Shown here: in pieces, positions 8,212 to 50,232 of the stretch
Layout of the letters: each line of letters starts with the position of its first letter
Numbering within the stretch: position 1 is the stretch's first letter
Assembly: GCA_030824535.1 (NCBI GenBank)
Contig: JAVBXO010000068.1
Location: 1-57,359, forward strand
Origin: Azonexus sp.
GTDB lineage: Bacteria > Pseudomonadota > Gammaproteobacteria > Burkholderiales > Rhodocyclaceae
Reading direction: 5' to 3'
Length of the DNA: 57,359 nucleotides
Program-made: the position numbers and the translations under genes
Notes under the pieces: generated by a model
What the model saw: only the letters and a program-made list of their open reading frames with translations
What the model was told of the DNA's origin: nothing
Databases searched by the model: none

Positions 8212-8243
8212 CGGCTTATCGAATGACCATGGAGGAGACATCT

Positions 8244-9332
8244 ATGCAACGTCGTGATTTTCTTAAAAAAGCATCCCTGGGTGCCGCTGCTGGCGCGGCC
8301 ACCACGCTCGCCGCGCCGGCGATTGCCGCCGAACTGCCGAGCATCAAGTGGCGCCTGACGTCCAGCTTCCCGAAGAGCCTGGACACCATCTTCGGCGGCG
8401 CTGAAGTGTTGGCCAACCGCCTGCGCGCCATGACCGGCGGCAAGTTCGACATCCGCGTTTTCCCCGGCGGTGAAATCGTTCCCGGCCTGCAGGCGCTGGA
8501 CGCCGTGCAGCAGGGCACTGTCGAGTGTTGCCACACCTGTTCCTACTACTACGTCGGCAAGGACAAGGCCTTCGGTTTCGGCACCTCGATTCCGTTCGGC
8601 ATGAACAATCGGCAGATGAACGCCTGGGTTTACTACGGCGGTGGCGACAAGCTGCTCAACGAGTTCTACGCCAATTACAACGTCGTGCATTTCCCTGGCG
8701 GCAATACCGGCACCCAGATGGGCGGCTGGTTCCGCAAGGAAATCAAGTCGCTGGAAGACGTCAAGGGCCTGAAGATGCGTATCGCCGGCCTCGGCGGCAA
8801 CGTCTTTGCCGCGATGGGCGCCGTGCCGCAGCAGATCGCTGGTGGCGACATCTACCCAGCGCTGGAAAAAGGCACCATCGATGCTGCCGAGTGGGTTGGT
8901 CCCTACGATGACGAAAAGCTTGGCTTCTACAAGGTCGCCAAGAATTACTACTATCCGGGTTGGTGGGAACCGGGTCCGATGATCAACTTCTTCGTCAACA
9001 AGAAGGAGTGGGACAAGCTGCCGAAGGAATACCAGGAAGCCTTCCAGGCCGCCGCCTTCGAAGCCAACGTGACGATGATGGCCGAATACGACCACAAGAA
9101 TCCGATGGCCTTGTCGAAGCTGCTGCAAAACGGCGTCAAGCTGCAGGCGTATCCGAAGGACGTCATGGATGCCGCCTACAAGGCCGCCCAGGAGCTCTAC
9201 GCCGACGAGTCCGGCAAGAATCCGGCTTTCAAGAAGATTTACGTCGAGTACGACAAGTACCGCAAGCAGCAGAACGCCTGGTTCAGTCTGGCCGAAATGC
9301 GCATGGACAGCTTCCTGCAGTCGCACAAGTAA
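8244..9332 (+). CDS. TRAP transporter periplasmic substrate-binding protein (DctP family, 2-oxoacid/TakP-like)
   Basis: The protein captures an organic acid in the periplasm for the QM permease encoded at 10.1-12.1 kb. The ATG at 8244 follows a strong GGAGGAG seven bases upstream and gives 362 residues. The N-terminus QRRDFLKKASLG is a twin-arginine signal, with cleavage likely after AAPAIAAE near residue 30, so it is exported folded by Tat. Residues 145-175 (WFRKEIKSLEDVKGLKMRI) contain the carboxylate-binding Arg typical of the family. The VGPYDDEKLGFYKVAKNYY region resembles TakP-type 2-oxoacid or lactate binders. Substrate is inferred. A bidirectional terminator follows. Confidence 0.88.
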   Translation: MQRRDFLKKASLGAAAGAATTLAAPAIAAELPSIKWRLTSSFPKSLDTIFGGAEVLANRLRAMTGGKFDIRVFPGGEIVPGLQALDAVQQGTVECCHTCSYYYVGKDKAFGFGTSIPFGMNNRQMNAWVYYGGGDKLLNEFYANYNVVHFPGGNTGTQMGGWFRKEIKSLEDVKGLKMRIAGLGGNVFAAMGAVPQQIAGGDIYPALEKGTIDAAEWVGPYDDEKLGFYKVAKNYYYPGWWEPGPMINFFVNKKEWDKLPKEYQEAFQAAAFEANVTMMAEYDHKNPMALSKLLQNGVKLQAYPKDVMDAAYKAAQELYADESGKNPAFKKIYVEYDKYRKQQNAWFSLAEMRMDSFLQSHK

Positions 9333-47709: not shown

Positions 47710-48333
47710 ATGCTTCTGGATCGATTAATCGGTGAGTTTGATCTGGCCCTGCGTACTGTTGCGGCGCCAGCCTGCACGGTGCGCCCGGTGCCAGGCGCCG
47801 AGTTTCCGGATGTTCAGCTCGATGAGCAGCAGCGTCAGCATGTGGTCGGTCTGATGCGGGTCAATCACTGTGGTGAAATTTGTGCTCAAGCGCTTTACCA
47901 AGGGCAGGCGCTGACTTCCCGTGACCCGGCGGTGCGCGAAGCGCTTAAGGGGGCGGCGCTGCAGGAAACCGAGCACCTGGCCTGGACTGAGCGACGGATC
48001 GCCGAGCTGGGGGGGCGCAAGAGCCTGCTCAATCCCCTTTGGTATGCCGGATCCCTGAGCTTGGGCGTGCTGGCGGGCGTGCTTGGTGATCGCTGGAATC
48101 TGGGCTTTCTCGCCGAGACCGAACGCCAGGTGGAGGCGCACCTGGATGGGCATCTGGACGATCTGCCTGTTGATGACCAGCGCTCGCGGGCGATCGTCAG
48201 GCAAATGCGTGACGATGAAATCGAGCATGCTGAAATGGCCGTGGAGTTTGGTGCGGCCGAGTTGCCGCAACCGGTCAAACTGGGAATGAAACTGGCGGCC
48301 AGGCTCATGACCGGAACCGCCTATCGTCTTTGA
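47710..48333 (+). CDS. coq7: 2-polyprenyl-3-methyl-6-methoxy-1,4-benzoquinone monooxygenase
   Basis: Coq7 hydroxylates demethoxyubiquinol, the next to last ring step in ubiquinone synthesis. The 207-residue di-iron protein shows ligands in [15 protein letters not shown] near residue 52, QETEHLAW near 86 and [14 protein letters not shown] near 164. The repeat structure of two E-x-x-H pairs fits the family. It binds the inner membrane on the cytoplasmic face. It ends 6 bases from the convergent OsmC-like gene. Confidence 0.93.
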
Positions 48334-48339
48334 CGAATC

Positions 48340-48768
48340 TCAGGCTTCTTCAATGATTTCAAAGTCGTGGGTGATTTCCGCAGTCTTTGCCATCATGATT
48401 GAGGCCGAGCAATATTTGTCCTTCGACAATTCTATGGCTCGCGCTACGGCCTCGGCCTTGAGTTGCTTGCCCTTGACGCGATAGTGGAAGTGGATCCGGG
48501 TAAATACCTTCGGGTCGCTGTCGGCACGTTCCGCTAGTAGTGACACTTCGCAGCCGCTGACGGCGTGTCGGCCCTTTTTCAGGATCAGGACGACGTCGAA
48601 AGCCGAGCAGCCCCCTGTTCCCGCCAGAACCATTTCCATCGGCCGCAAGCCGATATTCCGGCCGCCGGCTTCAGGTGCGCCATCCATAACCACCGCATGG
48701 CCGCTGCCGGTTTCCGCCACAAAAGCCATTCCGGCGTCGCTGCCCATCCATCTAACAGTGCATTCCAT
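48340..48768 (-). CDS. OsmC-family protein (YhfA-like)
   Basis: The 142-residue protein has the OsmC fold: VRWMGSDAGMAFVAETGSG at the start, then LAGTGGCSAFDVVLILKKGR near residue 48 with the first reactive Cys, and SGCEVSLLAERA near 72 with the second. OsmC members reduce organic peroxides; YhfA-type members are less well known. A TAAAAT -10 box (minus strand, 48794-48799) and TTGGAG ribosome site precede it. A TGCA-core palindrome at 48835 is well placed for regulation. Confidence 0.85.
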   Translation of the reverse strand: MECTVRWMGSDAGMAFVAETGSGHAVVMDGAPEAGGRNIGLRPMEMVLAGTGGCSAFDVVLILKKGRHAVSGCEVSLLAERADSDPKVFTRIHFHYRVKGKQLKAEAVARAIELSKDKYCSASIMMAKTAEITHDFEIIEEA

Positions 48769-48834: not shown

Positions 48835-48851
48835 TTGCTGCAGTGCAGCAA
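48835..48851. promoter_or_regulatory. Palindrome TTGCTGCA-n-TGCAGCAA upstream of the OsmC-like gene
   Basis: Perfect 8-base arms flank one G. The centre is about 45 bases upstream of the putative OsmC -10 box (TAAAAT on the minus strand, 48794-48799), a position suited to an activator or to upstream repressor binding. The core TGCAnTGCA is shared with the palindrome at 48993-49009. Confidence 0.6.
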
Positions 48852-48952: not shown

Positions 48953-49009
48953 ATTGTGCATAAATAATTGTTTTTAAATGATAAATTATACTATTGTGCA
49001 ATGCACAAT
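48953..49009 (+). promoter_or_regulatory. Promoter and operator region of a candidate small RNA
   Basis: ATTGTGCA-A-TGCACAAT (48993-49009) is a perfect 8-1-8 palindrome directly after a TATACT -10 box (48987-48992), so a bound protein would cover the start point. A half site ATTGTGCA lies 40 bases upstream (48953-48960). The flanking DNA is strongly AT-rich, unlike the rest of the window. No good -35 box is visible, which suggests dependence on an activator or a UP-like element. Confidence 0.6.
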
Positions 49010-49161
49010 TTTGTCTTGTGGTCGGCTCTTGCTTCAGGCAGAATGGGAACCGTTGCAGCTAGAGACTTAAGTGGTTGAGGGGTCTTTAGCTCAGATTTGT
49101 CTCCTCCACCCTCCTCCTTTGGTGTGGATTTAACGCGGCTCAGCGAGCCGCGTTTTTTTTT
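48999..49161 (+). ncRNA. Candidate small regulatory RNA
   Basis: The 565-base gap between the OsmC-like gene and rplM contains no coding sequence I can support, but it has the parts of a small RNA gene. A -10 box TATACT (48987-48992) predicts a start near 48999. AGCTAGAGAC (49057-49066) pairs with GTCTTTAGCT (49082-49091) as a 10-pair stem with one G-T wobble. An unpaired CU-rich stretch CTCCTCCACCCTCCTCC (49101-49117) resembles anti-Shine-Dalgarno target-binding loops. A strong terminator ends it. Expected length is about 160 bases. I do not recognise a known family. Confidence 0.6.
49132..49161 (+). terminator. Rho-independent terminator of the candidate small RNA
   Basis: AACGCGGCTC (49132-49141) pairs perfectly with GAGCCGCGTT (49145-49154) around AGC, followed by nine T. 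It has the plus-strand orientation, yet no plus-strand protein gene precedes it (the neighbour upstream is on the minus strand), so it must end some non-coding transcript. Confidence 0.9.
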
Positions 49162-49258
49162 CTCCGGTCTTGCCTTGCGGTTAATCGATTGCCGCTGGAT
49201 GAGTGATATATGGTCCCGGTGGGCGAGAACGGTATTCTGTTGATCTCGCATCTTTGCA

Positions 49259-49333: not shown

Positions 49334-49762
49334 ATGAAAACGTTTTCCGCCAAGCCACATGAGGTGAAGCGCGAGTGGTTTGTGGTAGACGCCACAGACA
49401 AGGTGCTCGGCCGCCTCGCTACCGAAATTGCCCGCCGTCTGCGTGGCAAGCACAAGGCTATCTACACCCCGCACGTTGATACCGGCGATTTTATCGTCGT
49501 CACCAATGTCGACAAGATCACCGTTACCGGTAATAAGGCCGAAGATAAGAAGTACTTCCGTCACTCCGGTTACCCGGGTGGTATCTACGAAACCAACTTC
49601 AAGAAGATGCAGCAACGTTTCCCGGGTCGTGCTCTGGAAACGGCCGTCAAGGGCATGCTGCCGAAGGGTCCGCTGGGCTACGCCATGCTCAAGAAGTTGA
49701 AGTGCTACGCCGGCGACCAGCATCCGCACACCGCCCAGCAGCCCAAGGCTCTGGAAATCTAA
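49334..49762 (+). CDS. rplM: 50S ribosomal protein L13
   Basis: L13 is an early-binding large-subunit protein. From ATG 49334 the protein has 142 residues, the E. coli length, beginning [11 protein letters not shown]. Typical segments are [19 protein letters not shown] near residue 15 and [14 protein letters not shown] near 78, with [19 protein letters not shown] near 97. A longer frame begins inside the promoter and is rejected. rpsI follows after 9 bases. Confidence 0.98.
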
Positions 49763-49771
49763 GGAGTCATC

Positions 49772-50164
49772 ATGGCTGAAAGTTACTTCTACGGTACCGG
49801 TCGTCGCAAGAGCGCCGTTGCTCGTGTCTTCATGAAGCGCGGTTCTGGCGCCATCATCGTCAATGGCAAGCCGGTCGATCAGTTCTTCTCCCGCGAAACC
49901 GGTCGTATGATCGTCCGTCAACCGCTGGAATTGGTCGAGCAGCTGGCCGGTTTTGATATCAAGGTGAATGTTACCGGCGGTGGTGAATCTGGCCAGGCTG
50001 GTGCTGTTCGTCACGGTATCACCCGTGCCCTGATCGAATACGATGCAGCGCTCAAGCCTGCTCTTTCCAAGGCTGGTTTTGTTACCCGCGATGCCCGCGA
50101 AGTCGAACGTAAGAAGGTCGGTTTCCACAAAGCTCGCCGCCGGAAGCAGTTCTCCAAGCGCTAA
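49772..50164 (+). CDS. rpsI: 30S ribosomal protein S9
   Basis: S9 lies in the head of the small subunit with its C-terminal tail reaching the P-site tRNA. The 130-residue protein begins with the family motif [16 protein letters not shown], has [15 protein letters not shown] near 69 and ends in [11 protein letters not shown], the basic tail whose final Lys-Arg contacts tRNA. AAGGAG is present before the ATG. It closes the rplM-rpsI operon and is followed by a strong terminator. Confidence 0.98.
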
Positions 50165-50197
50165 GTTACATATCCGGCAGTTTTTGCCAGATCAAAG

Positions 50198-50232
50198 ATG
50201 CCGTTCAGTATTTTCTGGACGGCATTTTTTTT
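50198..50232 (+). terminator. Terminator of rplM-rpsI
   Basis: ATGCCGTTCAG (50198-50208) pairs with CTGGACGGCAT (50215-50225) with one G-T wobble, followed by eight T. It lies 34 bases after the rpsI stop. Confidence 0.9.

Follow-up and report, generated by a model that had tools for sequence, protein, structure and literature searches.

An RF02278 small RNA between osmC and rplM in Azonexus, its PhaR-like operators and a possible link to PHB storage

The gap between osmC and rplM on contig JAVBXO010000068.1 of Azonexus sp. raises the question of which RNA is encoded there and what controls it. An initial annotation of this stretch of DNA (57,359 nucleotides, hereafter the window), made from the sequence alone, had proposed a small RNA gene with an anti-Shine-Dalgarno-like segment. 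Our analyses indicated that the gap holds a member of a catalogued family, RF02278, preceded by operators that resemble the binding sites of PhaR. The reading we favor, at a probability of roughly three in four, is that this sRNA is under PhaR, being repressed without PHB and released with PHB, and that it would act as a brake on carbon intake.

The RNA between osmC and rplM

The protein genes around the locus were as follows.

47710 to 48333, plus strand: coq7 (NF033656)
48340 to 48768, minus strand: osmC, the divergent syntenic neighbour (PF02566, NF008009)
49334 to 49762, plus strand: rplM, encoding ribosomal protein L13, the downstream syntenic neighbour (PF00572, TIGR01066)

As the initial annotation had it, there is no protein gene immediately upstream on the plus strand, the nearest being coq7, which ends at 48333, with osmC between on the minus strand. 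A cmscan search of Rfam identified a full-length match to RF02278, "Betaproteobacteria toxic sRNA", which includes ncS27 of Burkholderia, at 49098-49161 on the plus strand (66.4 bits versus a gathering cut-off of 50; E-value 2.5e-12; model positions 1-64 of 64). On the strength of this covariance match, the sRNA between osmC and rplM is a real small RNA and a member of RF02278, and the earlier suggestion that it fits no named family and may be new does not stand, since the match is over the cut-off. Over-expression of RF02278 RNA is reported to inhibit growth in E. coli (Kimelman 2012, as cited in PMC11722255, PMC7011215 and PMC4603805).

Four other sRNA families aligned at the place of the sRNA, all below their cut-offs, and membership of them was rejected: MmgR (RF00519, described as mmgR; 19.9 bits, cut-off 41), NmsRb of Neisseria (RF02877; 26.8 bits, cut-off 52), ncS16 of Burkholderia (26.0 bits, cut-off 48) and Bp1_781. 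Elsewhere in the window, a weak Qrr alignment at 50142-50232, at and after the end of rpsI (23.2 bits, cut-off 50), is probably chance or a terminator.

The features of the core were:

49098 to 49161, plus strand: RF02278 core (Betaproteobacteria toxic sRNA, or double-hairpin RNA), from the cmscan match of 66.4 bits and a 40-nt identity in congeners
49098 to 49117, plus strand: anti-Shine-Dalgarno CU-rich segment TGTCTCCTCCACCCTCCTCC, within the 40-nt stretch identical in 31 of 31 loci
49132 to 49162, plus strand: intrinsic terminator, a 10-pair stem and T-run, from the terminator scan and compensatory changes

The first 40 nt of the core were identical in all 31 congeneric loci fetched, which are the best-scoring matches and not a random sample, so that conservation is somewhat favoured. 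The anti-Shine-Dalgarno segment of the initial annotation, which is part of this identity, was thereby confirmed. The 5' UGUCUCCUCC end, an anti-Shine-Dalgarno end that is mostly single-stranded in RF02278, was found in the sequence and in the predicted fold. The annotation had described the CU-rich segment as unpaired; in the predicted fold this held for its 5' end and for the second CUCCUCC, which were open, but not for CCACC, which was weakly paired with GGUGUGG.

The second hairpin is an intrinsic terminator, as in RF02278, and corresponds to the strong plus-strand terminator and 10-pair stem-loop noted earlier (49132-49154; 10 pairs, 7 of them G-C, a loop of 3 bases, then a T-run). The terminator scan alone was weak (5 found versus 1.7 expected in 1501 bases). 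The stem and T-run were maintained across the 31 aligned congeneric loci, and the stem showed compensatory changes across 141 distinct cores. The first hairpin appeared in the predicted fold of the window sRNA and in the consensus for the genus, and was missing from the consensus fold of all 141 cores. The core alignment comprised 176 loci with these 141 distinct cores, drawn from 188 loci after seven without an exact TCTCCTCC near the match start (which were still included in the operator scan below) and five without a T-run had been left out.

The stem and CU-rich motif proved conserved in relatives, as the annotation had expected of a genuine RNA gene: an RF02278 member over the cut-off was present in 58 of the 60 genomes sampled for the genus, 112 of the 150 for the family and 75 of the 200 for the order, each sample including the genome of the window. 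That genome has three copies over the cut-off; two genomes of family f8 (G007 and G178) had 8-9 RF02278 matches each. An identical 33-nt core was present, among the matches listed, in records titled Azonexus, Dechloromonas, Zoogloea, Thauera, Azoarcus, Aromatoleum, Accumulibacter, Methyloversatilis, Herbaspirillum and Limnobacter. The exact core was also seen, among the matches listed, in MAG contigs labelled Chloroflexi and Steroidobacteraceae (L340, L356), which are perhaps misbinned betaproteobacterial contigs.

Both osmC and rplM were found in the fetched flanks of 29 of 31 loci of the genus, 22 of 27 of the family and 13 of 26 of the order, the genus and family loci being the best-scoring rather than random ones. 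The S17 RNA of Bordetella adjoins coq7 (PMC11722255), and the presence of coq7 beside both loci supports a common origin of the place. ncS27 of Burkholderia cenocepacia adjoins BCAL3348a, near BCAL3348, a ribosomal protein gene (PMC5688073, PMC4603805). The window sRNA is probably the positional counterpart of both S17 and ncS27.

Alignment of the 31 congeneric loci gave a conserved promoter and the following predicted transcript.

48987 to 48992, plus strand: TATACT, present, not conserved and probably not the promoter
49016 to 49021, plus strand: predicted -35 (TTGTGG), from the alignment of 31 congeneric loci
49039 to 49044, plus strand: predicted -10 (CAGAAT), from the same alignment
49051 to 49161, plus strand: predicted primary transcript of about 111 nt with a 5' hairpin, from the length and consensus fold of 31 loci
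49097 to 49161, plus strand: inferred processed short form of about 65 nt, by analogy to the RNase E-made S17S of Bordetella (PMC11722255)

A promoter of the form TTG-N3-N17-NANAAT begins 5-7 bp past a palindrome in 31 of 31 loci, which predicts a transcription start near 49051 and transcripts of 99-114 nt across the genus. In the predicted fold of the transcript, a 5' hairpin that recurs in the genus consensus is followed by the CU-rich end, with its weak hairpin, and then by the terminator. The annotation had instead read TATACT as the -10 box of a transcript of about 160 bases. TATACT was found at the aligned place in the window only (1 of 31 loci); the match to TATAAT there was at most 3 of 6 positions in 26 loci, and 4 or 5 in five loci including the window. 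The position of the conserved promoter and the genus lengths likewise argue against an RNA of about 160 nt. Open reading frames overlap the sRNA region; the differences in predicted leader length between loci are not divisible by three, which speaks against a conserved reading frame. S17 and ncS27 are both made long and then trimmed (PMC11722255, PMC5688073), and by analogy a trimmed form of about 65 nt starting at about 49097 is likely for the window sRNA.

Operators resembling PhaR sites

Two palindromes of the same kind precede the RNA.

48836 to 48850, unstranded: operator O1, PhaR-like palindrome TGCTGCAGTGCAGCA between osmC and the sRNA, matrix score 21.7
48994 to 49008, unstranded: operator O2, PhaR-like palindrome TTGTGCAATGCACAA, separated by 7 bp from the -35 that follows it, matrix score 22.2

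The palindrome of the initial annotation (ATTGTGCAATGCACAAT, 48993-49009) thus exists. It had been placed over the start point of the RNA; the conserved promoter 5-7 bp after it puts it upstream of the likely start, neither over that start nor within the RNA. Its interpretation as a sign of regulated expression gained support from the conserved PhaR-like operator at the same place. The palindrome, of the form TTGTGC-RNY-GCACAA, resembles the sites of PhaR (AniA), a regulator that binds PHB and so senses the granules of stored carbon. A site scoring at least 13.7 was found at the place of O2 in 31 of 31 congeneric loci, and a site scoring at least 9, and below 12 in four loci, was found at the place of O1 in 31 of 31 (scan threshold 8). 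The spacing of O1 from O2 was 158 bp in 16 loci, 157 in 11, 156 in two and 155 in two, or about 15 turns. DNA looping between them is possible; two divergent promoters with one operator each would be simpler. O1 was located 68-82 bp before the start codon of osmC, a position from which osmC itself may be in the PhaR regulon.

The scoring matrix was built from 16 sites in Sinorhizobium meliloti promoters that bound His-PhaR efficiently (Table 3, PMC12542648; binding is shown there for promoters and not for each site), and its source is independent of the genomes scanned. Four exoH sites, also of the efficient-binding class, and acyP (an rpoE8 site read backwards) were left out. The score of O2 is close to the matrix maximum of 22.4.

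The presence of the operator followed that of phaR across the order. We scanned 112 RF02278 matches from 76 genomes of the order sample, namely those over the cut-off plus three just below it (L214-L216); phaR was present in 136 of the 200 genomes of that sample. A site scoring at least 12 within 160 nt upstream was found for 52 of 84 matches in genomes with phaR versus 1 of 28 in genomes without it, and in control windows of the same loci for 7 of 968 and 1 of 278, respectively (8 of 1246 in total). Counted by genus, the operator was present in 35 of 42 with phaR versus 1 of 13 without, and by family in 17 of 19 versus 1 of 10 (Fisher tests: 2e-8 for matches, 1e-6 for genera, 5e-5 for families). 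Because relatedness makes the genomes non-independent, counting by family gives the fairest comparison. In Markov-resampled upstream sequences the mean was 1.25 of 84 with a site. The operator was present in 27 of 27 loci of the family sample (L038-L064). Of the 77 scanned loci that share the 33-nt core without a difference, 65 had it, versus 9 of 3125 control windows; three of the 80 identical-core loci were too short to scan, and the samples overlap one another. The genome of the window has phaR (TIGR01848, 137 bits, G000:C211). From this distribution, we infer that PhaR binds these operators.

The sole match with an operator in a genome without phaR was L161, from a genome that is 85% complete and whose congener G081 has phaR. 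No operator was found at the threshold for 32 of the 84 matches in genomes with phaR, and family f8 had it in 6 of 19. A TATTAGAnnATnCTWA-like palindrome was observed over the -10 of 16 of 28 matches in genomes without phaR (e.g., L176, L196, L201, L216) versus 1 of 84 with it; a different regulator may have taken over RF02278 genes where phaR is missing. By eye, several copies in G007 and G178 of family f8 (L149, L158, L166, L171, L177, L207) had an upstream block like GATAT..AATATCTG.TAT..AAGCAGAC and no clear PhaR site.

The same form of operator precedes phasin genes, which are known targets of PhaR: phaP1 and phaP2 are repressed by it (PMC4873508), and the betaproteobacterial PhaR (PhbF) of Herbaspirillum seropedicae, footprinted on TG[N]TGC[N]3GCAA, represses phaP1 and its own gene (PMC3206438). 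Phasin loci of five congeners served as a positive control: a matrix site of at least 12 lay no more than 350 nt ahead of the match in 17 of 25 (for the genome of the window, 4 of 6), and 8 of 25 had none. The O2 form TTGTGC-N3-GCACAA preceded four of the 25 (L115, L119, L124, L127). The locus thus shares with the PhaR regulon a PhaR-like operator near the promoter, the same form before phasins, and phaR in the genome; compared with the phaP genes of PHB-making bacteria, the difference is that the gene controlled here is an RNA. A phasin match ended 145-263 bp before the sRNA core on the same strand in 9 of 20 fetched genus paralogs, hand-picked from the genus match list, and in 9 of all 188 loci. 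Genome-wide, the form TTGTGC-N3-GCACAA was hardly enriched (3 sites versus 2 in the reversed control), and TGYTGC-N3-GCARCA occurred 23 times versus 0 in the genome of the window, 17 versus 1 in G306 and 22 versus 0 in G390. Two PhaR-like palindromes were seen 443 bp apart on one contig of the genome of the window (G000:C356:2448-2462 and 2891-2905).

Predicted targets and related RNAs

The initial annotation had proposed predicting targets from the CU-rich segment. Of 29 congeneric fadD loci (from the 30 most similar of 64 matches, one of which was incomplete), 22 had GGAGGAGACA, the complement of its first ten bases, ahead of the gene, and in the genome of the window 16 contiguous bases before fadD are complementary to the sRNA. 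For rplM, the sole usable control (osmC gave no rows and rpsI one), complementarity did not exceed 4 nt in any of 30 loci. In five genomes, GGAGGAGACA followed by ATG after 1-9 nt gave 3-8 rows per genome versus 0 or 1 in the reversed control; two of these rows were the antisense of sRNA copies themselves, and fadD was, by coordinates, among the genes in all five. Other candidates identified by family search were two TRAP DctP proteins, a Peripla_BP_6 solute-binding protein, a second acyl-CoA synthetase, an enoyl-CoA hydratase and a chalcone-isomerase-like gene, and among the rows read by eye were more solute-binding proteins, short frames and a frame resembling ribonucleotide reductase.

The chalcone-isomerase-like gene is about 600 bp before fadD, and both have an sRNA-complementary ribosome site in the genome of the window (G000:C257:5981-6596; L254, L257), in G306 and in G382. 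An upstream GGAGGAGA, about 600-645 bp before the fadD site, was found in 22 of 29 loci. The window itself contains one predicted target site:

8231 to 8246, plus strand: predicted target site GGAGGAGACATCTATG, where a dctP-like gene for a TRAP substrate-binding protein begins (8244-9332, PF03480)

The complement to the sRNA there is 11 nt long (TGGAGGAGACA). In an RNAduplex ranking of 57 window ORFs against the complete short form, dctP did not stand out; this ranking was not used because it seemed dominated by pairing outside the CU-rich end. Among GGAGGAG sites, enrichment of the target pattern is only mild: ACA followed GGAGGAG in 8 of 53 rows in G382 (6 distinct, sRNA antisense left out), as did AAA in 8, and in G306 the counts were 3 for ACA and 4 for AAA among 49 rows.

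The predicted targets are of the kind described for related RNAs, as ncS27 and S17 are reported to affect carbon transport and catabolism genes (PMC11722255, PMC5688073, PMC10987360). The double-hairpin RNAs ncS03, ncS05, ncS27 and ncS62 of B. cenocepacia are like the window sRNA in their full-model sequence and structure, their CU-rich anti-Shine-Dalgarno segment and their several copies per genome, and ncS27 has a processed form (PMC5688073), like the one predicted here. The literature passages name no regulator for them, whereas the window sRNA has a PhaR-like operator. S17 of Bordetella pertussis has a 5' end close to RF02278 and the coq7 neighbour, and is made as a long form from its own promoter (S17L) and a short form with the conserved end (S17S; PMC11722255). 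S17L is about 190 nt and BvgA-enhanced (PMC11722255), whereas about 111 nt and PhaR-like operators are predicted for the window sRNA. In its proposed control the window sRNA is like MmgR of S. meliloti, which is Hfq-dependent, has a PhaR (AniA) promoter site, is PhaR-repressed and is linked to PHB (PMC12542648, PMC8401924); the reported effect of MmgR is on phasins, whereas the predicted targets here are fadD and solute-binding proteins.

The proposed circuit and its alternatives

In the circuit we propose, PhaR would sit on the operators when there is no PHB, and the sRNA would be off. Under carbon excess PHB would form and PhaR would be titrated onto granules, as at phasin promoters; PhaR is reported to leave DNA when PHB forms (PMC9049629, PMC4873508). 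With PhaR gone from the operators, the sRNA would be made and presumably trimmed to the form of about 65 nt. Its UGUCUCCUCC end, probably with Hfq, would then cover the ribosome sites of genes of carbon uptake and activation, namely fadD, the chalcone-isomerase-like gene before it, and TRAP and other solute-binding proteins. In effect, filling stores would put a brake on the intake of further carbon.

Published expression data bear on this circuit in both directions. Induction in glucose medium (8.0-fold for ncS03, 6.9-fold for ncS05 and 4.3-fold for ncS27; Table 2, PMC5688073) fits it, and induction of these three RNAs in starvation (2.6- to 3.9-fold; PMC5688073) counts against it. Four further points do not fit simply: the operator count of family f8, the upstream place of O2, the activation by PhaR of some motif-bearing S. 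meliloti genes (PMC12542648), and the BvgA control of S17, which indicates that other regulators act in some lineages.

The starvation response and the place of O2 could be accommodated if PhaR activated the window copy and the sRNA were made when PHB is absent, much as ncS27, which a review passage links to nutrient deprivation (PMC10987360), would shut down metabolism under such conditions. In all 31 congeneric loci O2 directly precedes the -35. A repressor would be less expected there than at the position that the site occupies in the paralogs, which leaves some room for activation. We nevertheless consider activation unlikely. In 23 of 24 genus paralogs the site begins 35-38 nt ahead of the core and, by eye, covers the -35 region (the one without it, and four of these 23, being matches below the RF02278 cut-off), and in an automatic test the operator itself supplied the -35 in 28 of 79 loci, a blocking position that is common but not general. 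In addition, phaP1 of S. meliloti has sites 47 and 65 bp ahead of its start that belong to the PhaR-repressed module (PMC12542648), and the precedents of PhaR with phasins and with mmgR are of repression (PMC12542648, PMC8401924, PMC4873508).

It is also conceivable, at a decidedly low probability, that the RNA is an ordinary RF02278 anti-Shine-Dalgarno sRNA and that the palindromes belong to another regulator of the TGC-N3-GCA type. Although O2 (TTGTGC) has the TGC-N3-GCA core, it does not match the strict motif of H. seropedicae (PMC3206438), and the R. eutropha PhaR sites are described as unrelated 12-bp repeats in the same paper. Moreover, in family f36 the site and phaR disagree, the match with phaR scoring 11.9 and the match without it 16.4 (the latter in the genome that is 85% complete). 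Against such a regulator, the matrix came from promoters bound by PhaR in vitro and separated matches with phaR from those without it (52 of 84 versus 1 of 28), and the same sites precede most genus phasin loci. The other families containing both kinds, f10 and f43, followed the trend, with sites in 3 of 8 and 1 of 1 matches with phaR versus 0 of 1 and 0 of 3 without.

Less probable still is that the operators serve only osmC, and possibly a separate transcript, and that the sRNA is constitutive. The position of O1 before the osmC start codon would suit this, but O2 is fixed at 5-7 bp from the sRNA promoter in all 31 loci, and the other sRNA copies of the genus have a site of their own in 23 of 24 cases. 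A long transcript of about 160 nt from TATACT is hardly credible, as the motif is present but unconserved and the promoter scan listed none there, although that scan also missed the conserved promoter, whose -35 is weak.

Returning to PhaR repression of the window sRNA, we think it somewhat more probable than not that the circuit extends further, with the RF02278 sRNAs across PHB-making Betaproteobacteria forming an RNA arm of the PhaR regulon, in which titration of PhaR by PHB would free a storage-fullness brake on fatty-acid activation and carbon uptake. If so, alpha-proteobacteria would have reached the same circuit through MmgR, an sRNA of another family, and PhaR with a CU-rich sRNA would be a convergent wiring. 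Likewise, the RNA would be toxic in E. coli because the strength of a dosage-controlled anti-Shine-Dalgarno RNA is misplaced where the host has no PhaR.

As an RNA, this is a further member of RF02278; the importance would lie in its proposed control by PhaR, which is apparently unreported. RF02278 is known, from the passages cited, by toxicity, changes with growth conditions and target lists. In the open-access main texts searched, no link of RF02278 to PhaR or PHB was found: the words PhaR, PHB and polyhydroxy were absent from the main texts of PMC11722255, PMC5688073 and PMC10987360, PHB occurred once in that of PMC7011215, in a reference title, and the only match in PMC4603805 was "Pharmaceutical". 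A 2021 review called the role of riboregulation in PHB formation by Cupriavidus necator undeciphered (PMC8401924). The PhaR link would join the RF02278 family and the riboregulation of PHB into one testable circuit, and may touch on bioplastic production and on wastewater bacteria. Accumulibacter, Azonexus and Dechloromonas have a role in wastewater, and records of all three, among the matches listed, carry the RNA.
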